Assembly (NCBI GenBank): GCA_035236585.1
Contig: CP141139.1
Span: forward strand, 54,071,217-54,135,216
Length of the DNA stretch: 64,000 nucleotides
Origin: Warburgia ugandensis
Lineage: Eukaryota; Streptophyta; Magnoliopsida; Canellales; Canellaceae
Direction of reading: 5' to 3'
The position numbers and the translations under genes were made by a program. The notes under the pieces were generated by a model that made no database searches, was not told the DNA's origin, and worked only from the letters and a program-made list of their open reading frames with translations. Shown here piece by piece: positions 19,449 to 50,969 of this stretch. Within the stretch, counting starts at the first letter, position 1, and every line of letters begins with the position of its first letter.

Positions 19449-19450
19449 AC

Positions 19451-26537: not shown

Positions 26538-27125
26538 CTCACAATGGAGTTTTAATTAAATGTAGATAAAATTATTTTACCACTAATCATAGTTTAGTAA
26601 TTACATGTATAAAAATTTTAGGCAATTTTAGGTGTATTATTGCATTTTCTCTAATTCATATGATTTATTAATACTCTTTTTTTTCTACATGAATTTATTG
26701 AAGGATTTGGAGGAGAATTCAATTATGATGGGGCTTATTATTATTTATTTTTTAGTGAATTGTAGTGAGGATGTAATTGTAATTTTTTAATCATAGTTCA
26801 TTTTAAAAGGATTGTAATAATACAAGTCAAGGGTAAAACATCCTAACTTGGAAATGCAGGTGGTTTGTAGATGGTTGCACTCTTGTACAAGAAGAATTTT
26901 GCTTAAGATCCTACTATAAGCCGTCCTAACTCCTTGCATTTTCTAGATTAGGAATTTGTATGTTAAATAAGTCTTACATGATTGAATGGTAGTTTAATAT
27001 CATAGAGCTTACGTTCATAATTTAATTGTTACACTTTAATTAGCATTAAAGCATTAGTCACACCTACCTAGCATGGGATAGCCTAAGCTTGGTTACAACC
27101 AACAAACATAGGCTATTTAGACAAG

Positions 27126-30100
27126 GGTTCCAATAGTGTGATATTGTTCGCTTTGGCACAGAGTGCCTCACAGTTTTCAAACGAGTCACCGTGTGCATCA
27201 GAGTGCACAGTGGACGATATTGTCCTCTCTGGGTCCCTCAACCTATCTTGGGGTGTCCCCCTCAAGGTATCTTGGGCCCTTAAGGTATCTTGTCGCCCTC
27301 AAGGTTTCACTTCCTTCCCTTATGGGTCAGAACGCGTCATACCTATTAGAGCCAACCGAACTCTTATAACCAGTCCAGATCTCCCTCCCCAGGCGATGTG
27401 GGACTAACTCTCAATACCTCCCCGCCCTTGTTCCCTCAGACTATCTTGGGCCTTAGCCTTAGACTATCTTGGGACATCCCCCTCAAGCCATCTTGGCGAA
27501 CACTTGCGAGTTCACCTTTCCCCCTTTAGGGACATCTGCCCATGCGTGCGGCTAGCCCTCCCCACCATGAGGGAACTGGCTTTGATACCATTTGTAATAG
27601 TCCGGGGTTCCAACAGTGTGATATTGTCTACTTTGGCACAGAGTTCCTCGTAGTTTTAAAATGCATCACACCTGTTAAAGCCAATCGGACTCTCATAACC
27701 AGCCCAGATCTCCCTCCCGAGGCAATGTGGGACTAACTCTCAGTACCTCCCCGCCCTTGTTCCCTCAGACTATCTTGGGCGTGAACCCACTGGTGTTCAC
27801 CAAGATGGCTTGAGGGTGGGCCACGATGGCTTGAGGGGGATGCCCCAAGATAGTCTGAGGCTAAGGCCCAAGACAGTCTGAGGGAACAAGGGTGGAGAGG
27901 TACTGAGAGTTAGTCCCACATCGCCTGGGGAGGGAGATCTGGGCTGATTATAAGAGTTTGGTTGGCTCTAATAGGTGTGATGCATTCTAACCCATAAGGG
28001 AAGGAAGCAAAACCTTGAGGGCGACAAGATACCTTGAGGGGTACACCCCAAGATAGGTTGAGGAAAACCCAAGATAGGTTGAGGGACCCAGAGAGAACAA
28101 TATCGTCTGTTGTGCACTCTAATACACATGATGATGCGTTTTAAAATTTGTGAGGCACTCTGTGCCAAAGCGGACAATATCACACTGTTGGAACCCCGGT
28201 CTGTTAAAAATGGTATCAGAGCCAGTTCCCTCATGGTGGGGAGGGCTAGTCGCATGTGGGCACTCATGTGGAAACACGCGGGGACACGTGTCCCTAAAGG
28301 GGGAAAGGTGAACCCATAAGCATTTGCCAAGATGCCTTGAAGGTGGGGCCAAGATGGCTTGAGGGGGATGCCCCAAGATAGTCTGAGGTTAAGGCCTAAG
28401 ATAGGTTGAGGTGACGAGGGAGGGGAGGTACTGAGAGTTAGTCCCACATAGCCTGGGGAGGGAAATTTGAACTGGTTATAAGAGTCCGATTAGCTCTAAC
28501 AGGTGTGACACATTCTAAAACCGTGAGGCACTCTGTGCCAAAGCAGACAATATCACACTGTTGGAACCCCGGTCTGTTATAAATGGTATCAAAGCTAGTT
28601 ACCTCGTGGTTGAGAGGGCTAGCTGTACGTGGGCACTCGCATGGAAACACGCAGGGACGCATGTCCCTAAAGGGAGAAAGTTGAAGCCGCAGGTGTTTGC
28701 CAAGATGGATTGAGGGTAGGCCAAGATGGCATGACGAGGATGCCCCAATATAGTCTGAGGGTAAGGCCCAAGATAGTCTGAGGGAACAAGGGCGGGAAGG
28801 TATTGAGAGTTAGTCCCACATCACCTGGGGAGGGAGATCTTGGCTGGTTATAAGAGTCCGATTGGCTCTAACAGGTGTGTCGTGTTTTAAAATTGTGAGG
28901 CACTCTGTGCCAAAGCGGACAATATCACACTATTAGAACGCTGGTCTGTTACAAATGGTATCAGAGCCAGTTCCCTCGTGGTGGGGAGGGCTAGTCGCAC
29001 GTGGGCTCTCGCGTGGAAACACGCGGGGACGCGTGTCCCTAAATGGGAAAAGGTGAACCTGTAGGTGTTTGCTAAGATGGCTTGAGGGTAGGCCAAGATG
29101 GCTTGAGGGGGATGCCCCAAGATAGTCTAAGGCTAGGGCCCAAGATAGCCTGAGGGAAGAAGGGGGGAGGTATTGAGAGTTAGTCCCACATTGCCTGAGG
29201 AGGGAGATATGGGCTAGTTATAAGAGTCCAGTTGGCTCTAATAGGTGTGACACAATTTAAAACCGTGAGGCACTCTATGCCAAAGCAAACAATATCACAC
29301 TGTTGGAACCCCTATCTGTTACAAATATTGTCCGATGTGCACTCTGATACACACGGTGACGCGTTCTGACCCGTCAGGGAAGGAAACATAACCTTGAGGG
29401 CGACAAGATACCTTGAGGGGGACACCCCAAGATAGGTTAAGGAAAACCCAAGATAGGTTGAGGGATACAAAGAGGACAATATCGTCTGCTGTGCGCTCTA
29501 ATACACACGGTGACGCGTTTTAAAACCATGAGGCACTTTGTGCCAAAGCAGACAATATCACACTGTTGGAACCCTGGTCTATTACAAATGGTATCAGAGC
29601 CAGTTCCGTGGTGGTGGTGAGGGCTAGCTGCACATCTGCATTCGCATGGAAACACGCCGGGACGCGTGTCCCTAAAGGGGGAAAGGTGAAGCCACAGGCA
29701 TTGGCCAAGATGTCTTGAGGGGGATGCCCCAAGATAGTCTAAGGCTAAGGCCCAAGATAGGTTAAGGTGACAAGGGTGGGGAGGTACTGAGAGTTAGTCC
29801 CACATTGCCTAAGGAGGGAAATCTGGGCTAGTTATAAGAGTCCGGTTGGCTCTAATAGGTGTGACACGTTTTAAAACCGTGAGACACTCTCTGCCAAAGT
29901 GGACAATATCACACTGTTGGAACCCTAATCTATTACAAATGGTATCAGGACCAGTTCCCTCGTGGTGGGGAGGGTTAGCCGCATGTGGGCACTCATGTGG
30001 AAACACGCAGGGACACATGTCCCTAAAGGGGGAAAGGTGAACCCGCAAGTGTTTGCCAAGATGGCTTGAGGGGGATGTCCCAATATAGTCTGAGCCTATG

Positions 30101-31575
30101 GCCCAAGATAGTCTGAGGGAACAAGGGCGGGGAGTTACTAAGAGTTAGTCCCACATTGCCTGGGGAGGGAGATCTTAACTGGTTATAAGAGTCCGGTTGG
30201 CTCTAACAGGTGTGACGCGTTTTAAAATTGTGAGGCACTCTATGCCAAAGCGGACAATATCACACTATTGAAATCCCAATCTGGTGCAAATGGTATCAGA
30301 GCCAGTTCCCTCGTGGTGGGGAGGGCTAGCCGCACATGACCTCTCATGTGGAAACACTAGAGGATGCGTGTCCCTAAAGGGGGAAAGGTGAACCCACAAG
30401 TGTTTGCTAAGATAGCTTGAGGGTAGGCCAAGATGGCTTGAGGGGGATGCCCCAAGATAGTCTGAGGCTAAGGCCCAAGATAGTCTAACGGAACAAGAGT
30501 AGGGAGGTACTGAGAGTTAGTCCCACATCGCCTGGGGAGGGAGATATGAGCTGGTTATAAGAGTCTGGTTGGCTCTAATAGGTGTGACACGTTTTAAAAC
30601 CGTGAGGCACTCTGTGCCAAAGCGGATAATATCACACTGTTGGAACCTTGATCTGTTACAAATATTGTCCGTTGTGTAGTTTGACACACACGGTGACGCA
30701 TTCTGACCTATCAGGGAAGGAAACAAAACCTTGAGGGCGACAAGATACCTTGAGGGGGACACCCTAAGATAGGTTAAGGAAAACCCAAGATAGGTTGAGG
30801 GACCCAAAGAGGACAATATTGTCCGCTGTGCACTCTGATACACAAGGTGACACGTTTTAAAACTGTGAGGCACTCTGTGCCAAAGCGGACAATATCACAC
30901 TGTTGGAACCCTGGTATGTTATAAATGGTATCAGAGCCAATTTTCTCGTGGTGGGGAGGGCTAGCCGCATGTGAGCACTCATGTGGAAACACACGGGGAC
31001 GCATGTCCCTAAGGGGGGAAAGGTGAACCTGCAAGTGTTTGCCAAGATGGCTTGAGGAGGATGTCCCAATATAGTCTGAGGCATGGCCCAAGATAGTATG
31101 AGGGAACAAGGGTGGGGAGGTACTAAGAGTTAGTCCCACATCACCGGGGGAGGGAGATCTGGTCTGGTTATAGGAGTCCGGTTTGCTCTAACAAGTGTGT
31201 CGCGTTTTGACCCGTAAAGGAAAGAAACAAAACCTTGAGGGCGACAAGATACCTTGAGGGGGACAACCCAAGATAGGTTGAGAAAACCCAAGATAGGTTG
31301 AGGGACCCAAAGAGGACAATATCGTCTGCTGTGCACTCTAATACGCACGGTGATGCGTTCTAACCCATTAGGGAAGGAAGCAAAACCTTGAGGGTGACAA
31401 GATACCTTGAGGGCCCAAGATACCTTGAGGGGGACACCCCTAGATAGGTTGAGGAAAACCCAAGATAGGTTGAGGGACCCAAAGAGGACAATATCATCCA
31501 TTGTGCACTCTGATACACGGTGACGTGTTTTAAAACCGTGAGGCATTCTGTGCTAAAGCGGATAATATTGTCTGA
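27126..31575. repeat. Tandem array of TRIM-like terminal-repeat units, polarity switch near 27783
   Basis: About ten plus-strand copies of a unit containing CCAAAGCGGACAATATCACA lie between 27783 and 31575, with two minus-strand copies at 27126-27783. Most units carry TTAGTCCCACATCGCCTGG, then the GGACAATATCACACTGTT block, then ATGGTATCAGAGCCAG, which is an initiator-Met primer site. That is the arrangement of an LTR end plus primer site in a small terminal-repeat retrotransposon. Long units of about 340-380 bp (A) and short ones of about 260 bp (B, lacking the primer-site part) alternate as A-A-A-B. Open frames on both strands are by-products of the GC-rich repeats. No protein domain is visible. 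Confidence 0.8.
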
Positions 31576-32569
31576 CCTATCGAGGCCTAAACCCTTTATT
31601 AAGTAGCATATAGATAATTGCATTAGTCTACTACTTTCTCTTGCATTTTTAGGATGTATTTATTTCTTTAAGGTAATTATATGATTGAACAAACTACCAT
31701 TAGAATGAAGAATTGATTAGTAAGGGCAATAACCCCACAATCAAGGGTGGATTTGATCACCACCTCTTGGCCCACCTAGGTTAATTATCAATGGACACGT
31801 ACCATAAACTTTAATAAATTAATTTAAAATCAATTAGAAGAGACTTGTAGCAGTCCACGAGCTCATAGGAACCACTTAGAAGGAGGTAGATTACTATCAC
31901 TTTAATGGCCGCAAGCTAATCAACTACTTTGGTATTTAAATAACTAGCTTTGCCAACACCTTAGACAACTCAGATTACATATGGCTAACTAAGGAAGATA
32001 TGAAGCAGTTGATGTAGTTAGGATCTAATTGGTAAGCAGTAAGACAAGTCTGAAAGAAAGGAGAAGCTATTTAGGCTAGTATAATCTAACATCTACGCCC
32101 TCAAAAAAAAATTAAGATAAATAAAAAATATTTTCATCTTGTTTGTCTTAGGGATAGATTATTATGCCTCCTTTGGATGTGCATCATTTTTACATATAGG
32201 TCACATCATTTAGTTTAGGTTTCCCCAATCTAGTAAAAAAAGAAAAAGAAAAACAAAAGCAAAAAATAGGAAGGAGAACACTCTTTCATTGTTTGTAGAG
32301 AATATCTTTTCGTTCTATAACAAGTTGAGTCCATTGCACCAAACATTGGCATGTGCACGGCTGTCGATTTTTCTACATAGATTTAGCACTCATAGATCCT
32401 AAGATCGAATGGATTGCTCGGCAAGGGTAAATAAATAATCTTGATATAGATAGCCTTGCAATAGTAATGACAGACAAAGTAATAGAAGTTAATCCACTTA
32501 GAGAATACTCTACTCTAGTTCAATATAATTCACCATCATGTATAGTATTACCTACCACTAATAAAATTT

Positions 32570-32885
32570 GGACTTTATAAGATGGCAAATATAAGACAAT
32601 TTTAATACAACTGTCTTATATATTATAATATTATCAGATGGTTTTGACATAACTATCTTATAAAATTTTTATATAAGATGGTTTTGGTAAACTGCCTTTT
32701 ATTATGTTAATAATATAAGATGGTTTTTTAAAACTGTCTTATATTTTTAAAAGAATATAAGATGATTATCCATAACGGTCTTATATAAAATATTTATAAG
32801 ATGGTTATTGATAACAATCTTATAATATTAACAATATAATGTGGTTTTTAAAACTGTCTTATATTTTTCATGTTTTATAAGTTGT
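32570..32885. repeat. Subterminal repeats of the CACTA element
   Basis: About a dozen copies of a 10-12 bp motif (TATAAGATGGTTTT and its complement AAAACTGTCTTATA) occur in roughly 300 bp, often as inverted pairs. In this superfamily such motifs bind the element's DNA-binding protein. Here that role is inferred from family knowledge. Confidence 0.85.
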
Positions 32886-33344
32886 TCATCCTTTAATTTT
32901 TTACTCTTGGCTGCTTCAATGAAAACTTGAACATTGCATTGAATTTACATGCACTTTGTCCCGAACTTATATTTTCTCAGTTAATATTGGTTGGGTAGTA
33001 TTCATTCTTGTACTTTATCATATGTTTACTTTATTTGATGTTTATGGGTATGAAATTCCTTTTCTTTTTTCTTCTTGCATTTATGTGATATATTTATCTA
33101 TATGGATCAGTGTGTGGAACATTTGTGTTTATGGATTAGTCATGTTTTTGCATCATTCTTACTTTTCCCAATCCTTAACTTGAAAAGTGTTGATTCCTCT
33201 AATATATATTAATTATATATGTTTTTACTAACTATGTACATTTTATGTGCACACTAAGTATTTGGTTAAATGTCCAACCCATGTTATTAACTTTTCATGC
33301 TTAGAAAGTCTTTGCACACATTTGAACTTCAACTTTTGGACAAA

Positions 33345-33716
33345 ATGGACAAATATGCTTAGATGCATGGAAAGATCATCAAGGGAACAAAAAAGTTCAT
33401 TAAGTTTGTACTTAGGGTAGGTGGTTATTGTAATCGAATGCGATGTTCATGCTCGCAATGTGGAAACCTAAAAAAGGTTACTGATGGTGAGTTGAGAGAA
33501 CATTTGTGCTTCAATGGAGTAGATGAAAGTTATCGCCTCTAGATGTGGCATGGAGAGGAATTACCTCATGGGACCTCGATAAGGGCTTAATGTGTACACC
33601 TATGTTTCGATGTGTATAAAATGACTTCGAAGACAACCTAGAACAATTTTAGATTGCAATGGAGGAAGTCGATGAGCCATTGTACGTAGGGTGTCAAGAT
33701 TATACTTGTGACGACC
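33345..33716 (+). pseudogene. CACTA transposase N-terminal domain, broken
   Basis: From ATG at 33345 one frame reads MDKYA, a stop, then a block related to the transposase-associated zinc-binding domain of plant CACTA transposases. It includes NRMRCSCSQCGNLKKV and LREHLCFNGVDESYRL, with the spaced cysteines and histidine in place. A second in-frame stop falls just before the conserved MWHGEE. About 100 bases on, the reading shifts frame and gives EEVDEPLYVGCQDYT, another conserved CACTA block. The fragment ends at the inserted LTR. It cannot encode an active transposase. Confidence 0.85.
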
Positions 33717-36700
33717 CAAGTTTTTGAAATATGTTTTCGTTATTTATTTTCAAATGGTGGTCGACCAATTTTGCAAAAGTTTTGAAAACTTAAGCAGTGG
33801 AAAAAAATTTCTTTGAAATTCTTTTCAGAAAACACGAATGCCACATTTCACTCACATATACATACATAATTTTGTATACAACATATGTTTCCAAAGAAAC
33901 TCATTTTATTAAAATTGCAAGATCAATCTAGTGCTTCACATACACAGCCCATTTATTACATCTTATGTCCAAAATATACAAATCTAAATACAATCAAATC
34001 CTTTCACAAATGTATATAGTCTTGATCAATAGCATGGTCTTTATATCCCCTTGTCGTATTCCTTCAATCCTTCCTTTCTGTATTTGAGATACTGCAAACA
34101 TTTACATCTTATGTCCAAAATATACAAATCTAAATACAATCAAATCCTTTCACTATGCCATACATCATAATGCAAAATACTCAAAGGACTACCATGCTGC
34201 AGTCTGATCCATACTAACATGGTCAGATAACTGCCCTGTTCACCACTGATACCACAATGGAAAAAATTGTGTCACTGCCCATATGGGGAGATAGGACTTT
34301 CACAGTGGGGCCTTCCCATAATTGCCCCACCTCACTTTTAGCCTTTCTTTAGTCAAGGTATCATCATATCATCAAATTTCAGGAAGTAAATGGTCAAACC
34401 CTCATAACTCCCCTAGCATAGCATCACCAGGCTTATACCTGTTAAAACAAAACCACAAGCATCCATGCTTATATATAAAATACTTCTTGTTCATATCAAA
34501 CAATCTATCTGTTTATATTATTACCCTCATATTCAATATCCTTATACTAAGGATATAATTTCATTTCTAAATTTAGGGATTATTCATTTATTATAAATGA
34601 TCCCCATTACCTTTATTTTGGTATTCATATACCAAAATGTTATTTAAGTGTAAGGATACTCATTTGATACAAATGATATCCTTTATTGTTATGTTCTTAT
34701 CTAAGTTTAGGGGTAATCATAAATGATACCCAGGTATTTAATATGTAGTCCATCTAATTTCAACAGTTTATTTCTATCTCAACTACATGAATTATGATTC
34801 AAATGCAACTAAGCATATTATCATTCTTAAGCATTATAATTTCTATGTATAACAACAATTCCATAGACCATAGATCTTGTATTCTTAAAGTTCCACCTAC
34901 CTTGCATGTAATCATTCATCCATTAAAATCTTCCATGATTGACGTATGTAATCTGTAAATACATACATACTGTCATTATCTAAACAACTTGGATAATCTC
35001 ATATTTATATTCCTTATCTAATCTTGTCCTTTGATATAGATCTAGATCTTTCTTGTGTTCCTATCATCCATACAATCTATCTTCCTCAGATATTGTTTAT
35101 CCTATTGATCAATAGATTTGACTATTAGAATGATCTTCTAATCTTTCAGATCTAAGTATTTGTGCATCCATCTCTTTGATCCTGATCTTTCACAGATTCT
35201 TTGATCAACAATTTATACTTGTTGATAAAGATCAAGGGCCTAGATCTTCTATCATCTAGTTCTTCTTTGATCTAAGTTCAGTTGTTTGAACATCCCTAAG
35301 TAGGATGATCTTAATTCTTTTCCTTGAATCATATTTGATCAAGGGTGTGGATTATCTAATCTAATGATCTATATTTGATCTACAACATGCTAATAAGCAT
35401 ACATACTAATACAATACAATGTTATGATTCTTCTTATTCTTGATCATTCAAGATCTCCTTATGTATCTTGTTTGATCTTGATTATCTTACTTACCATGTT
35501 TATTAAGATTAGATATTTTACTAACCTTTTAGGATATTATTATTATTATTCAACAAGTTAATGTTTTATTGGTTGAAGATAGCTTATTTCATCCTAACAT
35601 GAGGATTGTATTAACCACTTTAGAGCAGAACCCAACTAGTAAGTCATAATCAAATCTGGAAATAAGGAGGAGCTGTCTAGATTTAGGAAAGATAATCAAG
35701 ACATTGTTCAATTAGTAGAATACTAAGATTGGTTGGGCTCATTTAGACCATAAAATACAAAGTAGTTAAGATTAAGATGTATCAAATAATCTAGACCATA
35801 AATTGACAATCAAAGGCTAGAATCTAATAATATGACAAGCCTTTAAGTAAGACGACTATGGGCAAGGAAGAACAAAAGTAAGATCATGATGATTAAGGAT
35901 AATCAAAGGTAGATCTAAAATTAACAAACCTTGAAAAATGAAATATATTATAGCTCAAACTGAGATCAATGGAAATTAGACATTAGACAATCCAAGCCAT
36001 TGATCAAAGGTATCCAAAGTAAAGAGATCCATATAGATCAAGATCATTATATTTAAGGATGATCAAAGACCAAACAAGATGTATATATGAAAGTGCGATA
36101 ACGTTATATACACATATGACTTGACAGATACACAAATTTATATGCCGACTAAGATCATTGATCATTCTAAGTATTAGGATCATCTCATTTGAGAAGGTGG
36201 ACCTTTAAGAATGCATTCCTTTAAATTTCAAGATCTATGTTCTAAGTATGATATTATTATGAAGTTTACATAATTTAAACGATTCAATTAGAATGATTAT
36301 AAATGCCTTAAATTGTTTCAAATGTATTCTATGATGATCTTATGCTTAGAATTTCATAGTTATTATTTAAGCATGATCTCAAATTATATTATTTAATTAT
36401 CCATGAATGTAAATTGAGAAATTCCATCCCTAGTACATGAGTACCTAATTAATAAGGATGATGATATTACTAAAAATTTTATATGAACATACAAATAGCC
36501 TGCTAGTATGATTATTATCTTTTATACAAGCATGCAACCTTGCGGGTTTTGTTTTTGATAGGCATAGGCCTCGAGATACTATGTTAGGAGGCTTGTGAGG
36601 GTTTAGCCACCCTCTTAAAATTGATGATATGCATACCATGACCATAGTGAAGCAAAATGTAAGGTGGGGCAATTATGGGAAGGCTAGTCACTATGACAGT

Positions 36701-37666
36701 CTATCTCCCTATATAAACATGACATTGTGTATTTTTCCACTGTAGTATTAGTGAAGTATATAACACTTATTCATGCGAACTAGTATGGATCAGATTGTAG
36801 CATAGTAGTCCTCTATGTATTTTACACTATAATACAGTTGATAGCATAATGAGATGCCCGGTATGAGCTCATTATTAATATTCCCATAAAGAAATATTTT
36901 TTAGCAAAGGTTGGATGATTATGGACCCCATAGAGTGAGGGGTGTGGATATTAAACCTAGTACAGTTTGGGTGTTGATATTATGATATTACAATTGATAC
37001 TATTAACTATGTTCACAAATTTAACTGTTTTACTCAGATAAGGCAAAATTAAATATGATTTATTTCATAAAAGGTTCCACATGAGAAGTTACATGATAGA
37101 ATTACTATACAAAGTATGATTCATGGAAAATGAGTTACTTCATGGAAATTGATGGAAGCATGTTGGAAGTATTACATAATTAGTGGACCATAAGTCATGT
37201 TTTAAATTTTCATATGCTTCTTAAATCCCCTACCAAGTATATCTTGTTGAGATATTGTAAGTGTTTGAATGTTTACAATATCTCAGATATAGATAATAGG
37301 AGTGAAAGGTTACAACTCGAGGATATCAACAACCATACTACTGATCAAGGGTTGTTGGAATCTTGTAATGTGTAGGTAATTTATTTGGATTGTGTTCTTT
37401 GGACATTTCATTTAATAATTACAGGTGGCTGTATATGTGAACCATTGGATGGATCCTGTTTTCAAGAAATGCTTTCCTATTGTGACTCAGTAGAAATCTA
37501 TTTTATATTATGTATAATAAGAGAATTAAAGTGACATTCCAGTTTTTGAAAAAGAAATTGCAAGGAAAATGTTTTTCGCTATTTGATTTTTAAATCTTTC
37601 ATAAAATAAGGGCCGTATCTTTTGAAATATTAAAAAAACTATGTTTTAAAAACTTGGGTTGTCACA
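33717..37666. repeat. Large inverted repeat: two head-to-head LTR copies
   Basis: The left edge is TGTGACGACCCAAG and the right edge CTTGGGTTGTCACA. The left arm (33717-35598) is the reverse complement, clearly but imperfectly, of the right arm (35599-37666). Both arms are related to 19451-21400, the 3' part of the chromovirus LTR above. They are therefore two LTR copies whose 3' ends point outward and whose 5' parts are missing at the centre. Flanking bases (ATACT and CCAAA) do not form a target duplication. No primer site, gag or pol is present, and no gene is seen. Confidence 0.85.
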
Positions 37667-37922
37667 CCAAAATTGGGTAAGGTCGTATAATCAATAAGAA
37701 TTTCACAAGATCAGTAATTTTAGAACTAGAATGCTAGAAAGAGATGCTCTTAGGTTCATCTTTCTTAGCTTGAATTCAAGGACTATAGAACTTTAGAAGT
37801 GGAAGAATCATTGAAGAGCGATGCCAAAATGGGCAAAATCTATAGAGAGAGAGAATATAATGATGATAAATTCGATGAACTCAAAGAGCATGAATAGAAT
37901 AATGCACAAAACTAACAAACTC

Positions 37923-37955
<33 letters not shown>

Positions 37956-39160: not shown

Positions 39161-39165
39161 GTTTG

Positions 39166-39171
39166 TATAAA
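39166..39171 (+). promoter_or_regulatory. TATA box of PFP-beta
   Basis: TATAAA lies 97 bases before the ATG at 39268, in a GC-richer stretch (TATAAAGGGGCG). Transcription would be expected to start about 30 bases downstream, leaving a short 5' untranslated leader of roughly 70 bases. Inferred from position and sequence only. Confidence 0.65.
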
Positions 39172-39267
39172 GGGGCGTGGAGAGTAGGTTTGTTCAGCCG
39201 CGTTGGTGGTGTTGCCTTCTGCTTTTCTCCCGGGTAGCCCCTTCTTCCTTCTTGCACCGCATCCAGC

Positions 39268-42200
39268 ATGAGTCCCGCAACCACGCCGGGCCGCCTCGCG
39301 GAAGTGTACAGCGAAGTCCAGACCAGCCGTCTCAACTATCCTCTTCCCCTTCCTTCCGTTCTCAAAGGCTCTTTCAAGATCGTCGATGGACCTCAGAGCT
39401 CCGCCGCAGGAAATCCTGGTCGGTATCTTCTTCATCTGTTGGACTGATATCGTCAATACTTGTTTTCTGTATCCACCATCATCATATTTGCCTTTCCTGC
39501 TGTACGCAGATGAGATCGCAAAGCTCTTCCCCAAACTCTTTGGGCAGCCGTCGGTCACGCTGGCTGCTAGCGATGACTCGTTAGCGGATCATAAGTTGAA
39601 GATCGGCGTTGTACTTTCTGGCGGGCAGGCTCCCGGTGGCCACAATGTCATCTCTGGAATCTTTGGTCTGCTTTCCTTTCTCGAACCTCTCCAATCATCA
39701 TGATCTGCTCTTTATGGCAGTGTGGATGTCTCATGAAAATGCTTTTTTATGCCCTTTTCTTCGTCACTTGCAGATTACTTGCAGGATCGGGCAAAAGGCA
39801 GCATCCTTTACGGATTCAAGGGAGGTCCTGCGGGCATCATGAAATGTAAATACGTAGAGCTGACACCAGATTTTATCTTTCCTTACAGAAATCAGGTGTG
39901 ACCCTCATTTCCCCCCCTTTTCTTTTTCCTGGCTTATGGACCTTTGTGTAGTCTAGATCTCATGAGCACTCCAACATGGTGAGGAGAGGAAATACAAGTT
40001 CTTTGGAAATATTAGAAAACAAACAGGTGGAGTCCGCAAATCATCAATGGCATTATAATCAATTAAGATGTATCAATCTTTATGTGTTGCTGAAACAACT
40101 TGTTCGAAAGATGAGGGCTATGTGCTTATAATGGAGGCTAGATGACCGAAGGAACTACTTTTGTATATCACGATTTGCATGAGAGCTGCTGGAAGAGGAT
40201 ATTCTTGCTTATTAGGAGATGTAGTTAGAAATATATTTTGATGAGTGTCCTGTAAATTGCATAACCTAGATGTCTACAAATTCTATATCAATCTCTCGTT
40301 CAATAATGAGAGAACACAACACTTCTTATTCTTAATATAGTGCCAAAGCGTGTGTTCTAACCGAACTTTTCATTGTGAAGGATCAGAAGTGGGGACTCCT
40401 TGTTTGTACGGTTTGACTAGTGACGGTCTATATAAGCTCCAGGTGTCTCCTACCATTCCAAGGACCCACGTACATTGGCATTTCTTAGTGGACATGTCTC
40501 TCTTGCCCAATGGCATGCACACTTGGGCCATCTAAACTCTTGTGTCCTTATGAAGATTTTTATCATCGTCATCATCATTCCCATTAGGGTCGGCCCCTTT
40601 TGAAGATTTTAAGAGAAAATAATTTTAGCTATAGTTCAATAAAGTCTCCGTCTTCTTATGTCTTTTCCTGTTTTGCTTGTTCACATGGGAAATACTCTTG
40701 TCTTCATTTGCCTAGTATGGCATTGTAAGCTCCCATCTGTTAGATCTTATTTACTCAGATGTATGGGGTCTCAATCATGTATCATCAATTGATGGCCATT
40801 GCTACTTAATAATATTTGTGGATAATTATTCTAAATTTTGTTAGAGTTTTCCTCTAATTTGCAAATCTGATGCTCTTAAGACGTTCATTCAGCTTTGATT
40901 ATTTGTTGAATGAAAATTTGACTGCAAGATTAAAGCAATGCAATCAGACTGGGGAGGAGAGTATTGTTAAGTCAACCACTACTTTGAAATCTTATGGCTT
41001 TGAGCATAAGATTGCCTGTCCCTGCACTCATGAATAGAATGGGCAGCTGAGCATAAATTCGACATTTAATTGAAATTGGCTTATCAATCATGGCTCACAC
41101 CAATGTCCTGCTAAAGTTTTGACACTATTCTCTTGAAACTGCTATGTATCTAGTCAATGCTGTCTCCTATCATCAATTGGTCTACTCCTTATGAAGTCTT
41201 GTTTCATAAAGAGCCTAATGACTCTTACCTAAGAATATTTGTTGTGCCGCCTTCCTGTTTACTAGGCCCTGCAATAATTATTAGTTTGATTTTTGGACCC
41301 TTTTTTATTCTTAGGCTACAATCCTTCTCATTTTAGTCATAGATGTTGCCACCTACAATCAAGCTGCATATACATTGGGCCCCATGTATGTTTTGATGAA
41401 GCCTCTTTACCATTTTATAAAATGTCCATATTAGGGCCTCCACCATCAATGGCATGCATAATCCTTGGACTTCCTATAGTTGATACTGTTCAAACAGCAC
41501 ATGTGGCATCATCTTCAAGTGATCTCAACCGCAGGTTAGACAAGGTGGAACCTATGTGCTATAGAGAAGCAACTAAGGATCCGTCGTGGTGGACCGCCAT
41601 GATCGAAGAAATTAATGTACTCTTACAAAATGATATGTGGGTCCTTGTTTCAAATGTTGGTAGCCTCAACATCATAGGCCGCAAATGGATATTCAAGATC
41701 AAGTGACAATTTGACGGTTTTAGTGAAAAGATTAAAGCTCCTTTAGTTGCAAAAAGGGTACAATCAGAAGCCAGTATTGATTATTCCTAGACATTTAGTC
41801 CTGTTGTCAAACCAGTGACAATCCAAACTAGTTTTTCTATTGCACCATCAAACAATTGGAAGATTTCATAGCTGGATATGTCAAATGCGTTCCTACAGAG
41901 CGATACGAATGAAACTGTGCCTAGAATTCATTGATGAATCCCTTCCTAATCATGTCTGTCTCTTGCAGAGGTCTCATTCGGGTTTGAAATAGGACCCACA
42001 AGCTCTGTTTTCGAAATTGAGTACGTAGCTTTAATGGCTCGGATTTGCTAGTTTTTGCACAGATATTTTGTTGTTTACCTACAGGAGAAATGGTGTTATT
42101 CTCTATGTATTAGTCAACGTGGATGACATCGTTCTCACATGGAGTGATTCACGAGCAATCACAACCATCATCCAACTGTTACAAAGGGAGTCCACACTCA

Positions 42201-45200
42201 AGGTTTTGGGAGATCTGTCATTGTCTAATTCTAGTCAGCATGGACTTGTTCTCTCTTAGAAGAAGTGCATTCTTGATCTATTATGGAGGACGAAGATGGC
42301 TGGTGCAAAACCAATCTCCACTCCCATTTCTTCTTCCATCAAGCTTACTAAATGGGGTGGCTGTCCAATGAAAGATCATTGCATTTATAGCAGCACGGTA
42401 GGTGCTCTTCATTATTTCTATTACCATGACCGAATATCTCATACGCTGTCAATAAAGTCTGCCTGTTTATGCAATCTTCCATGGACGATCATTGGCAAGC
42501 ATTAAAAAACGATTCTGCGCTATCTCAAGAATTCTCTCCTACAGGCTTACAAATTTTCAGATCTTCTTCTGCTCATCTTCAAGTATTCTCTGATGCCGAC
42601 TGGGCAGGATGCCTAGATGATCAGTGCTCCACTAGTAGTTATGCTGTATTCCTTGCTCAAAATTTAATCTTATGCTTCAACAATTGCAAGGTCAACAGCT
42701 GAGTCCGAATATAGGGGTTTTGCCAATGCCACTGCAGAATAGGCACGGATCAAGTCTGTTTTACATGAACTTGCCATACCTTGTGGAGCTCCACTATGGC
42801 TTTGATGTGAAAACATTGGTGCCATGTACCTCATTGTCAATTTGATGTTCCATGCAAGTGCCAAGCTTATAGAGGTGGATTTTTACTTCGTGTGAGATCT
42901 TGTTTCAAAAGGGACTCCTTCAAGTTTGTTTTATATCTATAAAAGGATCAATTGACAGATGTATTCACAAAGCCATTACCCTCTGCATGTTTCATTTTAT
43001 TGTGTGACAAGTCGAATGCTTGCAAGTTGGAACCTTCGACCTGATGGGGCATATTAGGAGATGTAAATATAAATATATTCCAAGGACTGTTTTGTAAATT
43101 GTATACGCTGATGTCTATAAATATGATATCAATCTTTCATTCAATAGTGAGAAAATACAACAATTCTTGATTCTTAATATTGCTCAACTTCTTGATTCAT
43201 TTTATAGTTTACGAGCCTTAATGGTATCTGGCTTACCTTCACCAATTTGCAAATTTATGTTTTTGCATGAAATATATGTTTTAGCGAGTAAAATGAATAT
43301 ATATTTGCTACGTTGCTTATTCTAATCGTTTCCTTTGTATTTTCTATTTGTTAGTAATCTTTTGAATTTATATAAAAAAAATACTTGCTTTTGTTAACAA
43401 AATTTCAGAACAGGTGGAAAACTGATATATTCAATTTCATAAGAAAGTGGAATGGAGGCTTGAATGGACTTGAACAACCAAGTTTGGGGCCCTATCGTTG
43501 AGGCGCTTGTGAAGCTTATTGATGGAAAAGAGATATTTTGTCCTTGGGTGAAGATGACATCTACTAAGCTTTTTGTCTCTATCTACCAACTTATTCTGTT
43601 AATTCTCCTCCATGTTAGCACCTTTAGTTGAATTTCTCACTCCAAAAGCATCTCTAATGATGCAAGAAAGAAGATATCAGGTACTAACATTTGGTCTTGG
43701 GAGTTTGGATAGGCTGTGAACTGGAAAAGATGGGTGTCCCCAGGGTAGTACAGCCAAAGATAACTGAACCGGGTCATCTTAGATAGTGGTTGCAAAGGTT
43801 AATAGAGAATGGTGCAGCCTGTGAAAGGAGATAATTGTTAAAGGACTATTGTATTAAGGAGTACAATTAGTATAATATCTGGTAGCAGTGGGCTTCCACA
43901 ATTATCTGGTTGAGTATAGTTGGCCTATTCACTGAGGAACTGTTTTATGTGGGCTTAGTTATCTATGGATGAAGCTATCCCATGCAAGCATTGGTTATTA
44001 CAATCTTTAACTAAGCTTCATTAAAGTTCTAGGATAGAAAAAGTCCTCTAAAGTCTGTTAAACCTCATTTCTAGCAGCAAGTATATATGGAAACTTGGCA
44101 GACCTGGTGGACAAATTCTTTGCACTTTTCAAGCATCTGCAGTGGTATGCTTGTCAAAATACAAGATGCAACTTTTTATTTTCTTGAATTAGATGTACAC
44201 CCACAAGTAACCTTGATTGGCTGACCTTCCATGGTCGAGGCCCCTTCTTTACCCACTAGGTTAGAACACTGTGGCTAAGGTTTTCCCTTACTGTAGAACA
44301 GATTTTGCATATCTGGTAGTAATGTGCTTGTTACATGCTTTATTCTTTAGTGTTCTGTTTTGTTCTCTTTTTAGGACTGTTAAACTTTCTTCTTGCCGTT
44401 TATTTTTTAACAATTTTTTTTCTGCTTGGTAGAAAAGTCAAATTCTTCAAAATATATGGCTTTAGGAATTTGTTGAAAGAAATTTAAAGTTCGTCATTGG
44501 ATAGAAGTGGTGAGGAAAGATTTAAAAACTTTGGGACTAAATGAAGCCATGGTATTTAATAGAGTGGAATGGAGGAATAAGATTCATGTGGCCGACCCCT
44601 AATTGGGATAAGGTCTTGATGATGATGATGATGATTGGATGGATAAACAGTAATTCTCATCCTCAGAGGTTCTTGTACTGATATTAGGAAGTAGATCCTA
44701 TATTGTCCCCTTCTAAAAGCAGGTTGTTCTCACACATATTTGTAAGGCAATTCAGTGATGTATCAGATTTTGGAAAGCTGTAGCTATTTAGTTTTTTGAC
44801 GTAGTATCCTGATGTCGAGCAATATTTAGTTTGGGCAGTTCCAAGTTCCAACCCTTTATTATTCCAGTGTGCTTTCATTTTTGTGGCTATGATGCTGGTC
44901 TTCTGAGTTTCTTTTTTCTGTCAGTGGAATTTTGGAACTGTTAAATATGTATAGATTTTCAGTTTAAATATATTTAAATCTATTTTATCACCATAGAGAA
45001 TATTTAGATTTATTAACGGTAGAGTTGTCGTCATGTGAGCTTGAGGTCGCAATTTCAAGGCTTGGAAACAGCCTCTTGCAAAATGCAAGGTAAGGTTGTG
45101 TACTTTAGACCCTTGTGGTCTGCCCCTTCTCTGGACCCTGCATATGCGGGAGCTTCGTGCATTGTGCTGCCCTTTTTCTTTTTAAATTAGGTAAAATGCT

Positions 45201-46207
45201 CATTATCTAGTACTCTTGTCTTTGTTTGGCATAACCAAATTAGAAGGCAAATGGTTTGAAAGAGAGTTACAAAATCTGTGAAGCTTGTGGAATCCAAAAA
45301 GATCAGCCAAGTTCTTGTATGTGGGTTTTTTGAATAATCTCACCAATGACAATAAGACTGTCGGGAATTGCAAAGTCTTGAGTTTTGTTCAATCAGTTCT
45401 CTGTTTGGACAAAAGAAAGCAACTTAGCTGATCTTTGTGTCCAATACACTATCTATCATAGGTGTGCTGGACTTGTACACATACATATATGTGTGTGTGT
45501 GTGCAAAGAATTTTTGTTATATAGTCTGGCTTACTTGATTACGGGTTATATCTTATCTTCAATTTGAACTTTATAAACAGGGTGGGTTTGATATGATCTG
45601 TAGTGGAAGGGACAAGATTGAAACTTCAGAGCAGGTGCCTTTCCTCTATACTTGTAACAGAGAGTCCATTTCTATCATTGCATGTATTTCCTATGTTTTT
45701 CTATTGAATAAACTTTCTTATTCCAAGGCATATTGTTTGGTTACTTTTTCAAGCTTCTTAACTAAATTCACATGCTAATTGTTGTCAGTTCAAGCAAGCT
45801 GAAGACACGGCATTGAAGCTTGACTTGGATGGCCTTGTCGTTATTGGAGGAGATGATTCAAATACTAATGCATGTCTCCTGGCTGAGAACTTCAGGTGCA
45901 CAATGTGATTCATCTCGTGTGGGAATATTAAGTTCTATATAATAGGGACATGCTACTTTAGTAATCTGATTCAACTTGACTTGTCGTCTAGGTGCAGGGT
46001 TTTACTTTCAGATTCTGTTCTATGGTTTTTCTGAAAATTAAACTTTGTCCTTATTTTGTGGAAAAGTGTTACTTATCCTCCCAATATGTATGGATTGATA
46101 GGCTAAAGAATATCAAAACTCGTGTTATTGGATGCCCAAAGACAATTGATGGTGATTTGAAATGCAAGGAGGTTCCAACAAGTTTTGGATTTGATACAGC
46201 TTGCAAG
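39268..46207 (+). CDS. PFP-beta: Pyrophosphate-fructose 6-phosphate 1-phosphotransferase, beta subunit (exons 1-6)
   Basis: The cytosolic enzyme reversibly converts fructose 6-phosphate plus pyrophosphate to fructose 1,6-bisphosphate plus phosphate. Beta is the catalytic subunit, paired with a regulatory alpha subunit and activated by fructose 2,6-bisphosphate (family knowledge). Exons are 39268-39418, 39510-39665, 39774-39895, 45581-45634, 45789-45895 and 46102-46207. All junctions are GT-AG and phases match, giving 232 uninterrupted codons. The start gives [18 protein letters not shown], like known plant N-termini. Motifs seen are GGQAPGGHN (residues 88-96), GGPAGIMK (119-126), GGDDSNTNA (181-189, whose second Asp sets pyrophosphate preference in the family) and PKTIDGDL (209-216, catalytic loop). 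Family members are about 565 residues, so some 40% is visible. The next exon, expected to start near IYSEMIGNVM, was not found before 64000. The gene is probably functional with a very large intron 6, though a truncated locus cannot be excluded. Confidence 0.93.
40210..43179 (+). mobile_element. Copia (Ty1) retrotransposon with both LTRs and target duplication TTGCT
   Basis: Two 128-bp LTRs (40210-40337 and 43052-43179) start TATTAGGAGATGTA and end TTCTTAATA. TTGCT flanks the unit at 40205-40209 and 43180-43184. Inside, in Copia order, are an integrase stretch (about 40735-40920, DLIYSDVWG), the start of reverse transcriptase (about 41570-41705, ending GRKWIFKIK), later reverse transcriptase (about 42085-42240) and RNase H (about 42590-42700, [10 protein letters not shown]). 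At under 3 kb it is shorter than a usual autonomous Copia element, so coding parts are missing as well as broken. The LTRs differ at roughly a fifth of positions by eye, so it is old. It lies sense within PFP-beta intron 3. Confidence 0.9.
40561..40600 (-). mobile_element. 40-bp tail of an RTE-type LINE with 10-bp target duplication
   Basis: On the minus strand the insert reads GGGGCCGACCCTAATGGGAA followed by GAT-like repeats, the characteristic 3' end of plant RTE LINEs seen also at 44588-44637. It is flanked by TGAAGATTTT at 40551-40560 and 40601-40610. It is an extreme 5' truncation inserted within the Copia internal region. Confidence 0.8.
44498..44637 (+). mobile_element. 5'-truncated RTE-clade LINE
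   Basis: One frame reads [18 protein letters not shown] and then [14 protein letters not shown] before a stop. This is the C-terminal end of the RTE open reading frame, just after the reverse transcriptase. It is followed by GCCGACCCCTAATTGGGATA and a (GAT)n tail at about 44617-44636. Only the last 140 bases of an element that is normally over 3 kb are present. Target duplications were not identified. Confidence 0.85.
45015..45178 (+). mobile_element. Au-type SINE, slightly 5'-truncated
   Basis: It matches the copy at 48107-48284 from its A-box region onward, sharing GGAAACAGCCTCTTGCAAAA, GACCCTTGTGGTCTG and the closing GCTGCCCTTTTT. It lacks the first bases GGGAGCCTTGG. It is derived from a tRNA-like polymerase III promoter and carries no protein. 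It lies sense in intron 3. Confidence 0.88.
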
Positions 46208-47103
46208 GTGTTGATTCTTACTGACTTGAGATGTCATGCTTTTACCGTCTATTCACCTGCTTTATGTTTTCATGAACTAATTCAATGGAGTAATCGTGTA
46301 CTCTTCTCGAAGTTATGAACTTGACATACTATCATTTGCAATAGTGTTGCCTGTAATTGGTGTCATTTTCCTGTTGTCATGAAAGCACCAATTTTAGCAG
46401 AATCAATGTATTATTTAGATAGTAGTGTCCAATATGAAGTACAGACTTGAATTCACTGCATCAGACAATATATCTAGAAGACTTTAGAAAAGGATAATTT
46501 CATTCTGGAGCAAAGAAAGATTTAACTGCAAGTGTCAGAATGCTAATGTTGCATATGCTTGCCTGTCAAAGAAAAACAAAAAAGGAAAAATGAAATCTGA
46601 ATACGTGCTTGCCTGTCAAACTTCTGTGAAATTTAGCTTGGGGTTTGATGCTTGAACTTTATTATGTGACAATTCAGTGACAACTAAGATGCCATGTAAT
46701 CCAGTTATTCATCTCAGAAACAATCAAATTGATATTGGCTTCCACTATACTATATTCATGGGGAAGTGCAGAACTGAGAAGTAATTCCTCGTTATGTCGT
46801 GGTTTATCATGTCTAAGTGTGTTCCTTAAAAGATCTCTTTGCAAAGAGATATCCCTTCTTGATTAGCATACTTGCCTAGCAAGCTTAGTATGTTTATTAG
46901 GTTTTGGTGTATATGTGTTCTATCGTGGATTTGGGTAGGAGCATATTTGGTAATATAGTATGTGAGAGTATTTTGAAACTCCTGTAATATGTGCATAGAC
47001 ATACACATATGTATGTTTATATATTTATTAAATGGATGTAAGTATGTATGTGTACGCGTGCATGTATGTATTTATACATGTATATATTTATATTTGTATT
47101 GAA

Positions 47104-47284
47104 GGGAGCCTTGGCGCAACGTTAGATTTGTCATCGTGTGACCTGGAGGTCACGTGTCCGAGACATGGAAACAGCATCTTGAAAAAATGCAAGGAAAGGC
47201 TATGTGCTATAGTCTCTTGGCAGTCCACCCCATCCATGGACCTAGATATATAGCAGGAGCTTCATGCACCAGGATGCCCTTTTT
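47104..47284 (+). mobile_element. Au-type SINE, full length
   Basis: It starts GGGAGCCTTGGCGCAACG, which holds the A-box-like part, and has a B-box-like GGTCACGTGTCCGAGAC about 50 bases on. It ends in TGCCCTTTTT. It is the most divergent of the four copies in the window. Similar words on each side (TTTGTATTGA and ATTGTATTTGA) may be a decayed target duplication. Confidence 0.9.
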
Positions 47285-48106
47285 AATATTTATAATTGTA
47301 TTTGAGGAATGATAAATACAAGGGCACACTTGAAGAGACCCAGGACATTATTGGTGCCACTTCATTTCAAGATATTAGCTTGCTTTGCTTTTCAATTTAT
47401 CCTAGTTTTCTTTTATTTAGAGTGAAATAGACAAAATTCATCTCTTTACGTCCTTGCGTATTCCCTTACTTTCAGCCCATAATCTCCCTCTCTCTCTCTC
47501 TCTTGACGTCAGTGCTTTCTCTATTATGATGTGGACACTGATACAGGAGTCTAGACATGCGATGGATACGAGTAGGTAACACGTCAGCTCCTTAGAAATC
47601 AGAGATAGAGACGCTGTTAATAAATAAATAGATAATTCAAAAAAGCTGAATTAAAAATAAATAAATAGAGAAGGAGCCAAATAAAATGCAGCAGCTACCA
47701 CTGAAAGCTATAATGAAAATCCAAAGTCCCACATGAGAGGTTGCTGTTGACTTGGATGCTTGCCAGTATGCTTGGAGTTCTAGACAAGTGTTGGCATGAG
47801 TGTCGTGTCAATGGGTCTCTAACACGAATATGAGAGGGAAATAGAAGTGTTCGGCAAATTATAGCTTCTCTAAGATGTTTTTTCACTTGGTCAAACCCCA
47901 TCAACTTTAATTTTTAAGCATGATTACTCAAACAATTCCAGGATTTTGTTCAAAGTTACTCAACTTGAACAAATCAAGTATTAGTTGCTTGTCTTTCTCC
48001 TTCTCATAAGCCAAAAAGGGTAGAAAATATTGAAATCCTTGAAGTAAACCATGATTGCCGTGGTTGGGTCTTTAAATGGTTTTCAGTTCCCTTTGCTAAT
48101 CAGAAG

Positions 48107-48284
48107 GGGAGCCTTGGTGCAACGGTAAAAGTTGTTGTCATGTGACCTTGAGGTCATGGGTGCAAGGCGTGGAAACAGCCTCTTGCAAAATGCAAGGTAA
48201 GGTTGTGTACTTTAGGCCCTTGTGGTCTGCCCCTTTCTCGAACCCCATATAGGCGGGAGCTTCATGCACCGGGGCTGCCCTTTT
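48107..48284 (+). mobile_element. Au-type SINE, full length
   Basis: It starts GGGGAGCCTTGGTGCAACGG and has a B-box-like GGTCATGGGTGCAAGGC. It continues through GGAAACAGCCTCTTGC and GACCT-like spacing to GGGGCTGCCCTTTT. It is about 178 bases, the usual length for this family, and has no coding capacity. Confidence 0.92.
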
Positions 48285-49227
48285 GGTTTTCATCAAATAG
48301 AAATGCAAGAGGAAGACGTAAAACCAAAAATTTCAATGGAAGGATGGAGCAAGGAACAAGGTGATTTCAACATTACATAGAGAGAGAGAGAATTGTGTGG
48401 GCACATAGGCACACACAAAAGTATTCCTTCTGATGAATAATTACGAGCATACCATCAAGTGCACCCTTGTATTCATCATTCCTAAACCAAAGGCCCCTAT
48501 TTTGGCATGAAGAGTCCTCTTATATGATCCCACCTGTCCATTGGCTTGCTTCTATTTTGAATGTCTAGAAGTTCAAAAAGCATGCTTGTTGGATGATTCT
48601 AACATTTGAAGAATTCTACTTTTGGTTACATCAAATAAATGGTTAGAGGTTTGAAAGAATGGTCTAAATTCAACAAGCAAAGGTTCCTTTTTAAGGTGCT
48701 AGAATCATCCAAATGTAGTATTTTTTGGTTGGATGATACTAAAAGCAAGAAAATCAAATGAACACGCTAGATGATCCAAAGGTGGCTCCGTCATGGGAAA
48801 TTAGGGTGTTCTGGTTTGGGCACTTTGGCTTAGCATCTCTCTCTCTCTCTCTCCCCCTCACACACACACACACACACGCACATGTTCCCTTGTTTAATTG
48901 GATGGTTTCCCTCGGTTTCTAGTGGTCCATTTATCGTCTGTTGCCATTAAAATCAAAGTGGGCTCCCGTCCATTGTGCATTTTAGATGGTGGTAAAGTGA
49001 GACCACATAATGACCTCTTCCTCATCATGTCAACTTATTTAGTAAGATATACTGACCCTTTTCCTTTTTAAAGCTTCCCTTGTGAGACTGAACCAAAAGT
49101 GGTTTGTTACGAGTCTATTCAAATCCATCCAAGAACTAAAAATTGTACAAAATGCCATGGTCGATCAAATCAATCCTCTTTGGAAAGCATCCTGGGCATT
49201 CTAAGAGATGCCATCTTTCAATTGTTC

Positions 49228-49230
<3 letters not shown>

Positions 49231-49276
<46 letters not shown>
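49231..49276. repeat. (TC)23 microsatellite
   Basis: There are 46 uninterrupted bases of alternating TC, the longest simple repeat in the window. Confidence 0.98.
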
Positions 49277-49280
<4 letters not shown>

Positions 49281-50292
49281 AGGATGAATGAGCATGACAA
49301 GAGATTGTTAAGGTAGTGGTAGGTACTGAAAATTTGGAAAGGGATCAACAAGTAATTGAATGTATTCTTTTTCTATGTGAATTAGCCAAGCAAGGAGCCA
49401 CTGGACTCCCTATCTCTTAAAGTGGGCTGGGAGAATAGCATAATTTGCTCCCTTCCCATTTGCTTCTAATAGTTTCAACTATCCTAGAAAAATTGTTGGC
49501 CAACTATCTCTCTCTACACACAGATATATATATATATATATATGGAGGTGATATTCCCACACCCCTTTGGTACTAATACTACACCCTCTTTTGGAGTTTT
49601 ATTGTTCTTTTATCTAAGGGGCCTTTGTCGTGATAATTTGAACCATTCATCTTAGGTGTTTTGTAGTAGATGATTGTATTGATGCTTTTTTTTCTTGAGT
49701 TGCAAAATCAATGGTAGAAAAGTTAATGCCGTTAAAAACAACTAAAAAAATCAATATTCAAATCGTTTAAAATGCGTGATTTTTGAGACATGGCCTATCT
49801 ATAGCAAGATGCTTAAGATGAAGTGCCTAATTTCTAAAAAATAGTCAATCATAGATGTACTTCTACTATAAAACTCCAAAAGATATTGTGGCATTAGTAT
49901 GAAAGGGGTTTGGGAATATTAGCTTCCTTCACATATGTATTCATTTTCTCAGTACAATTATAGGATGGATCTAAGCTGTTCATCATGTTCGTGGACAAAA
50001 TTTAGCATGCATGAAATCAATGCATTCAAAAGATCCTAACCATGTTTTGGGTTTGAAAAATCAATGGAAATTGATGCATACTAAAAGTTTTTGTAGATGT
50101 AATGGAGTACCCCAAAATTCCAAGATTGATGGTAGATCAATAGAGATCAAGGATGATCAAGCAACGGACGGTCAAGATCAACACTAAACCCTCTTGATTC
50201 AAAATGTTTTGTACCTGTTAAATCATATCGGAGTGGACAACTTGAGTCTTGAAAGAATGAACGGTTTACATTGGTTGAATTGTCTTGGAACC

Positions 50293-50969
50293 TGATAGAA
50301 AACGAGTAGAACCAGCAGTAGTATGAGGAATTCTGATTGATACTATTTTGTTACAGAGATCAAAAGAATAGTAATGGAAGCTAGCAGATACACCCTCTGG
50401 GATGTGTACAATGATTGCTTATCGAGAAGAAGAAAGAAAGGAACAAACTGTCCCTAGCTTTCAAGGAGCTAGGCCCTCCCACTCTTGTCTACTCTTCCCC
50501 CTCTTCCTCTGCTCCCACTCCCCTTTACCTCCTTTCCCTTTCCCTTTTCCGGCCCGTACTCTCGTTCTCCCTGATTCCCTTGGATTCCTTCTAACTGAAT
50601 TCCATAACCACCTATTCCCCTTGTGCTAATTGTTAGAAAGAATAAGGACAATTGGCACAAGGAGAATAGGTGGTTATGGAATTCAGTTAGAGAGGATCAA
50701 AGGGAATTAGGGTGAGCGGGAGTATGGGTGGGGAAGGAGGTAAAGGGGAGTGGGAGCAGAGGGGAAAGAGCAGACATGAGTAGTGGGAGGGCCTAGCTCC
50801 TCGAAAGCTAGGGACATTTTGTTCCTTTCTTCTTCTTGATAAGCAATTCTCTATACACATCCCAGAGGTTGTATCTGCTAGCTTCCATTACTGTTCTTTT
50901 AATCTTTGTAACTGAATATTATCAATCAGAATTCCTTATACTACTATTGGTTATGCTTGTTTTCTATCA
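50293..50969. repeat. Inverted LTR pair (head-to-head palindrome)
   Basis: The left arm (about 50293-50633) is the reverse complement of the right arm (about 50648-50969), with a spacer of about 14 bases. The outer ends are TGATAGAAAAC and GTTTTCTATCA. The right arm is the 5' LTR proper, followed by the primer site; the left arm is an extra inverted copy. Compared with the 3' LTR starting at 55675, both arms lack about the first 110 bases of the LTR at the centre. Confidence 0.9.

Follow-up and report, generated by a model that had tools for sequence, protein, structure and literature searches.

Integrases of long terminal repeat (LTR) retrotransposons leave a 5-bp target-site duplication (TSD) and TG..CA ends. 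In maize, one copy of the Zma-SMART element, drawn in a single panel (Fig. 2) of Gao et al. (2016; PMC4717578), consists of two inverted terminal-repeat retrotransposons in miniature (TRIMs) flanked by the TSD CTTCA, and the structures in that study are said to have been checked by PCR and sequencing. In the open-access literature, to which our survey was confined, this is the only direct precedent found for mirror or inverted-LTR elements. The present analysis concerns a TRIM-like mirror array in a 64,000-nucleotide stretch of Warburgia ugandensis DNA (hereafter the window; C14:54071217-54135216, from a genome of 1.12 Gb in 14 contigs), together with its relatives elsewhere in the genome and two further inverted LTR pairs in the window, one chromovirus-type and one Ty3-type. 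The explanation that we favour, with a probability of roughly three in four, is a joint one: this TRIM family very often enters the genome as head-to-head dimers joined near U3 and inserted through their two U5 ends, and the other two pairs are separate, ordinary insertions.

Tandemly arrayed TRIMs (TA-TRIMs), especially the inverted pair of Zma-SMART, share small LTR units and a 5-bp TSD with the family described here (PMC4717578). In the sections of that source considered, however, one inverted panel stands amid direct arrays, whereas here the mirror form is the common one in the sample, U5 lies at both ends, the mapped centres are private where searched, and the arms are mixed. Cassandra is likewise a small non-autonomous element with tandem LTR-internal-LTR units, but the portions of its description considered report tandem arrays and mention no inverted ones (PMC7215508). 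HIV-1 autointegration (PMC2644782) and yeast Ty cDNA (PMC4751563) offer a parallel in that cDNA ends become linked to cDNA, whether in place of chromosomal integration or ahead of it; as far as the extracts of these sources go, the outcome there is a suicidal pathway or circles, whereas here the joined product is inserted with a TSD. A family combining a predominant mirror form, TSDs beside two U5 ends and private centres was not found in the open-access literature surveyed, including the parts of PMC7215508, PMC11899658 and PMC6934838 that were consulted.

The TRIM family is large and non-coding, and occurs mostly in the head-to-head form in the samples. DNA queries were run against the genome with the best 40 candidates scored per query, and the family was probed with the 3' part of one LTR in a single orientation (28797..28956, +; 160 nt). 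Besides the window array, this query yielded the clusters L009-L027, and 19 of the 20 clusters, all but L013, contain a polarity switch with minus-strand units to the left of plus-strand units. Within the 19, the arms of L012 lie 1.5 kb apart, one arm of L024 measures only ~90 nt, and L014, L015, L019 and L025 carry extra switches, as does L040. Another locus, L028, came from a different query that was itself inverted and is excluded from this count. In the window array, the switch is located at 27780/27781 (near 27783 in the initial annotation).

The excess of head-to-head copies extends beyond these clusters. At up to three mismatches, the first conserved 25-mer of the unit is found at 3,212 places on the forward strand and 3,360 on the reverse (6,572 in total) and its backward control at none; a second conserved 25-mer has 485 forward and 477 reverse places (962 in total). 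Among the 200 motif places listed (the first 100 exact places of each 25-mer), neighbours within 1.5 kb were in the same orientation 69 times, head-to-head 22 times and tail-to-tail three times, which is far above chance; the first motif alone gives 12 against 0. Two further sets of loci were fetched: L029-L044 in genome order of the places of the first conserved 25-mer, except for L021 (fetched before) and L060 (fetched later), and L053-L060 from listed places with a single-orientation look. Bidirectional structures were present in 14 of these 24 loci (10/16 and 4/8, respectively), a proportion that is low if anything, because the second set was chosen for its single-orientation look; L042 was moved from the single-orientation to the bidirectional class once its 39-nt arm had been read. 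One long TRIM-family array, L060 (C2:19462300-19466300), keeps a single orientation over all 4 kb fetched, unlike most sampled copies.

Inside the arms, the units retain the marks of LTR retroelements. A primer binding site (PBS)-like sequence lies behind 105 of the 183 U5 ends scanned, presumably matching a tRNA, and a polypurine tract precedes 92 of the 119 U3 starts scanned. The string AAAGGGGGAAAGG followed directly by TGAACC recurs within arms and is interpreted as polypurine tract plus U3 start. An earlier LTR model of ~157 nt, starting TGAGAGTTAGTCCCACAT, was dropped, as the breakpoints and the recurrent AAAGGGGGAAAGG-TGAACC junction put the U3 start ~120 nt further upstream; in L009-L044 and the window, no LTR start of the first-model kind adjoined host DNA (128 were preceded by the first tract, and seven others were all array-internal by reading). 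In the window array, the PBS-like TGGTATCAGAGCC presumably matches initiator tRNA-Met. The array contains four open reading frames of at least 100 aa, none with a Pfam match at E 0.01, and an Rfam scan of the window returned nothing at the gathering threshold, so no 5S-like LTR was seen. Some LTR types carry in their U5 part a perfect 14-nt palindrome, GGACAATATTGTCC, for example near the left end of L042.

Both outer edges of the bidirectional loci are the 3' (U5) end of an LTR, reading TGTAACAG... on one side and ...CTGTTACA on the other. Both edges were readable at 29 bidirectional loci, with element spans of 515-5,693 bp; five more (the window array, L040, L041, L057 and L058), in which an outer end is decayed or lies outside the fetched stretch, were omitted from the test. 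An exact 5-bp TSD flanks 19 of the 29, whereas matches were exact at width 3 in one locus, at width 4 in none and at widths 6-11 in none. Position by position, the flanks agree in 25-28 of the 29 loci at the five bases, compared with 5-12 at the six positions to one side of them and 8-16 to the other side. The first 27 loci comprised 17 exact TSDs, seven with one mismatch and three with two. Six shifted offsets gave no exact match, and re-paired flanks gave a mean of 0.66 exact matches with a maximum of four in 5,000 re-pairings; automatic end calling blind to the TSD gave 11 exact and four one-mismatch duplications among 26 pairs, some of whose ends were wrong. The TSD sequences vary between loci, and even L042, one arm of which is only ~40 nt long, has the exact TSD GTAGT.

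Since the same 5 bp flanks two U5 ends, the dimer was inserted as a unit in an integrase-like manner; relatives of the window copy thus entered the genome as units through two U5 ends. The mirror copies are therefore classed as TRIM-derived and not as canonical TRIM insertions, given the inverted U5 outer ends at 29 loci. The initial view that the TRIM array is not a product of ordinary integration was right. An intact U3 start against non-element DNA was seen only in L038 and L035 among the fetched loci, and in neither case was the TSD clean, a matching 5-mer in L038 being displaced by 2 nt; other one-orientation copies, such as L013, L031, L037 and L056, are truncated on the U3 side. It is conceivable, if somewhat doubtful, that the family has become unable to integrate through U3 and reaches the genome solely in the form of mirror dimers with U5 at both ends, which would make it an obligately palindromic LTR retroelement.

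Centres were tabulated for 28 bidirectional loci, with L012, L042, L054, L055, L057 and L058 outside the table. For the window array, L016, L018, L034 and L010, the 25-mer spanning the centre matched a single genome place in every case at up to three mismatches (five of five searched), under the rule that gives the two conserved 25-mers 6,572 and 962 places; with centres private in this way, the mirror copies seem to have formed anew rather than been copied whole, and a shared master palindrome is not supported within a divergence limit of ~12%. In 10 of the 28 centres, one arm stops no more than 4 nt from the U3 start; breaks distributed evenly over 280 positions would put 1.8 of the 56 arm ends there (P about 1e-5). 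Some centres fall at short shared sequences, such as CCCTC in L034 (by eye), and in L041 and L042 one arm of only ~40 nt still ends in U5. The polarity switch of L042 sits at a near-copy of GGACAATATTGTCC (by eye).

The arms of a copy are seldom each other's closest relatives. When their terminal 170 nt were compared with all other arms at 19 loci, the two arms of a locus differed by at least 8%, some distances being inflated by structural or length variants of the LTR, and in 15 of the 19 each arm was closer to some arm of another locus than to its partner. L027, which measures 515 bp with a single LTR in each arm and has one mismatch in its TSD, unites two different U5 types. As the arms are often of different LTR types, a single cDNA copying itself is disfavoured as the general route. 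Hairpin self-priming at GGGGGATGCCCC behind every centre was dropped as a general mechanism, the centres being scattered and the arms differing in type. Integrase attack of one U3 end on another cDNA, a possible alternative, predicts a complete arm exactly at TG, whereas offsets of -4 to +3 were observed. End joining or template switching explains these offsets at least as well.

A sequence of events compatible with these data would begin with RNA copies reverse-transcribed by enzymes that another element may supply in trans. Before integration, a cDNA would then be linked head-to-head, close to U3, with a second cDNA or a piece of one, possibly by end joining or by template switching of the reverse transcriptase. 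The joined product would carry a functional U5 end on either side, and integrase would insert the dimer by these two ends, leaving the 5-bp TSD. For the TRIM family, the 5-bp TSDs at two U5 ends and the private centres lend good support to such joining before integration; the window copy is judged through its relatives, its own ends being decayed.

Several observations weigh against this account. The joining step is one that we infer, and in the window array itself the decayed outer ends make the TSD unreadable. Elsewhere, three of the 29 TSDs depart from identity at two positions, and some outer ends were chosen by eye with the flanks in view. The second conserved 25-mer taken alone gives a weaker excess (nine head-to-head and three tail-to-tail neighbours, P 0.07), and 10 of the 24 further loci show one orientation in the fetched stretch, some being cut by its edge and several having a truncated U3 side. 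Several centres, including those of L024, L026 and L043, lie away from the U3 start, and U3 breakpoints were read by alignments able to shift a few nucleotides in repeats. Centre copies more than ~12% diverged would escape the rule of up to 3 mismatches in 25, and arms here differ by at least 8%. Finally, the arms are mutually nearest in three of the 19 loci (L017, L033 and L034), so that some copies could be self fold-backs.

Fold-back of a single molecule, in which minus-strand cDNA snaps back and copies itself into a palindrome with two U5 ends, survives best among the alternatives and is unlikely as the origin of the mirror copies in general. It predicts both the two U5 ends and a centre near U3, and it may account for some copies, as the three loci with mutually nearest arms suggest. 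Arms made in this way would start out identical, yet both have closer relatives elsewhere in most of the loci compared; L027 joins two U5 types; and even in L034 the right arm extends ~53 nt beyond the U3 start while the left arm stops 55 nt short of it. The simple form of fold-back, involving a single cDNA, is therefore disfavoured as the general TRIM route, since the arms of a single copy can differ in LTR type; fold-back during reverse transcription had been among the possibilities named in the initial annotation.

The initial annotation had also raised the possibility that one process produced all three inverted repeats. Their existence is confirmed by self-comparison of the window, which recovers the TRIM array, the chromovirus-type pair and the Ty3-type pair; the list of its 25 longest inverted arms (83-243 nt, 84-92% complementary) consists of arms from the TRIM array apart from one entry (I20). 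A dimer-joining process acting on three families would draw on their identical geometry, with U3 ends meeting in each pair, on the Ty3-type pair having one complete arm and another cut near U3, as TRIM copies do, and on a 6-nt microhomology at the chromovirus-type joint. We consider it improbable, and a shared process behind all three pairs is not supported, for reasons that lie in the two LTR pairs themselves.

The chromovirus-type pair, a label taken over from the initial annotation and examined here as LTRs only, is oriented by a third LTR that adjoins a PBS (Table 1). Its arms are 67% and 72% identical across two aligned pieces, meet centrally with their 5' (U3) sides and have TCCTAA in common at the joint (35592-35597). 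Over query positions 3-1450 of 1894, the left arm shows 91% identity with several other genome copies, and its 85 matches do not include the right arm; for the right arm, the best full-length other copy among the matches listed reaches 82% and partial pieces up to 84%. The two arms belong to different LTR subfamilies. The outer flanks are unmatched (ATACT / CCAAA), with no shared TSD; two insertions plus a deletion at the 6-bp microhomology suffice and are the most likely origin.

The Ty3-type pair, initially labelled Reina, is 80.7% self-complementary over 50293-50969, and its arms meet at 50630/50631 rather than at about 50640 as first annotated. The right-hand element carries reverse transcriptase, RNase H and integrase in Ty3/gypsy order between its LTRs and is placed in that group. 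The claim that the 5' part of the LTR is missing at the centre of both pairs stands for the chromovirus-type arms and falls for the Ty3-type right arm, which is a complete LTR. Among the matches listed, this LTR shows 82% identity with the left arm and 81% with a C12 copy; the arms are therefore not a recent duplicate. Nested insertion of one element into the LTR of another is the most likely origin, and it fits because one LTR is complete and the other is cut ~20 nt from its end. When the missing 20 nt of the left LTR were sought beyond the right element, only that element's own two LTRs matched, and the loss of its far end at 55936 leaves the pair outside the TSD test. Just past the truncated 3' LTR, two direct 505-bp repeats (56197-56701 / 61318-61822, 98.2% identical) are possibly the LTRs of a young element. 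For both the chromovirus-type and the Ty3-type family, no further opposite-orientation neighbours within 10 kb appeared among the matches listed (best 40 of 96, 10,868 and 12,622), and the two pairs look like single events.

A fold-back DNA transposon, whose long terminal inverted repeats (TIRs) of tandem units would be moved whole by a transposase, is very improbable. Both outer ends are indeed inverted copies of one sequence, and long inverted arms built of repeats are reminiscent of multi-TIR Mutator-like and fold-back elements, but neither the length of the TSD nor the privacy of the centres suits them. Mutator-like elements have a TSD of ~9 bp, whereas the duplication here is 5 bp and an exact match at width 9 occurs in none of the 29 loci. 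Transposition of the whole unit would keep the centre, yet all five centres searched are unique at up to 3 mismatches in 25, and the units possess a PBS and polypurine tracts. Multi-repeat TIRs are known in Mutator-like elements, to judge from a title cited in PMC11899658.

Nested insertion, unequal crossing-over or post-insertion inversion could be imagined to have built the arrays, since direct tandem TRIM arrays are published (PMC4717578 and PMC7215508, in the parts considered) and five loci have extra switches (L014, L015, L019, L025 and L040). This is highly improbable: neither nesting nor later inversion leaves an identical 5 bp beside both U5 ends, and inversions predict equal numbers of head-to-head and tail-to-tail neighbours, not 22 against 3. 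An assembly artefact is scarcely credible, for although inverted repeats are prone to misassembly, the terminal arms of the 19 loci differ by at least 8%, the bidirectional loci of L009-L028 are spread over 11 of the 14 contigs, and the TSDs are locus-specific.

Features of the three inverted pairs are collected in Table 1. The outer end of the right arm of the TRIM array is decayed or truncated, so its limit at 31570 is approximate. The window holds other repeats as well: a 498-bp unit in tandem duplicate (10577-11572, 99.4% identity), similar to a sequence next to the L039 TRIM copy (by eye); a 132-bp unit present twice (5886-6157, 99% identity); a 316-bp self-complementary, repeat-rich stretch with a look of miniature inverted-repeat transposable elements between the TRIM array and the chromovirus-type pair (32572-32882); and a 2-kb direct duplication (13035-14989 / 21778-23672, 83% identity).

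Table 1. Coordinates of the TRIM array, the two inverted LTR pairs and associated features, numbered from the first nucleotide of the window.
Feature	Position	Strand	Remarks
Third chromovirus-type LTR	19450..21389	-	3' end followed by primer binding site
TRIM mirror array, left arm	27113..27780	-	Units leftward, U5 outward; outer U5 end decayed, start approximate
TRIM array centre	27776..27786	.	Left arm cut ~62 nt inside U3; right arm starts 1 nt before U3 start TGAACC
TRIM array, right arm	27781..31570	+	8 tandem LTR copies with recognised 5' half; units rightward, U5 outward
PBS-like TGGTATCAGAGCC	28211..28223	+	Directly after LTR 3' end; one of several in TRIM array
Polypurine tract TAAAGGGGGAAAGG	28295..28308	+	Followed by TGAACC at 28309, taken as true U3 start; one of several in TRIM array
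LTR 3' part, query sequence	28797..28956	+	One TRIM LTR
Chromovirus-type LTR, left arm	33707..35597	-	U3 truncated by 103-106 nt (against three relatives)
Chromovirus-type LTR, right arm	35592..37666	+	U3 truncated by 15 nt (against three relatives)
Ty3-type LTR, left arm	50293..50630	-	Lacks ~20 nt of 5' end; no primer binding site seen at outer side
Ty3-type complete 5' LTR, right arm	50631..50969	+	Starts TGTTAG; followed by PBS-like TTGGTATTAAAGC
Broken internal region of right Ty3-type element	50971..55773	+	Reverse transcriptase, RNase H and integrase zinc-finger pieces
3' LTR remnant of right Ty3-type element	55774..55936	+	First ~160 nt, 85% to 5' LTR

If dimer joining before integration is the correct explanation, the integration of an LTR retroelement would not need a pair of U3 and U5 ends: a dimer could be inserted through two U5 ends, and this may have happened very often in the present family, whose LTR copies number in the thousands. 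The mirror copies would then form a natural record of cDNA-to-cDNA joining before integration, in which each private centre is a readable joint. They would also be a simple origin for long inverted repeats, from which hairpin RNA might arise, and TRIM copy counts relying on direct repeats would overlook the mirror form.

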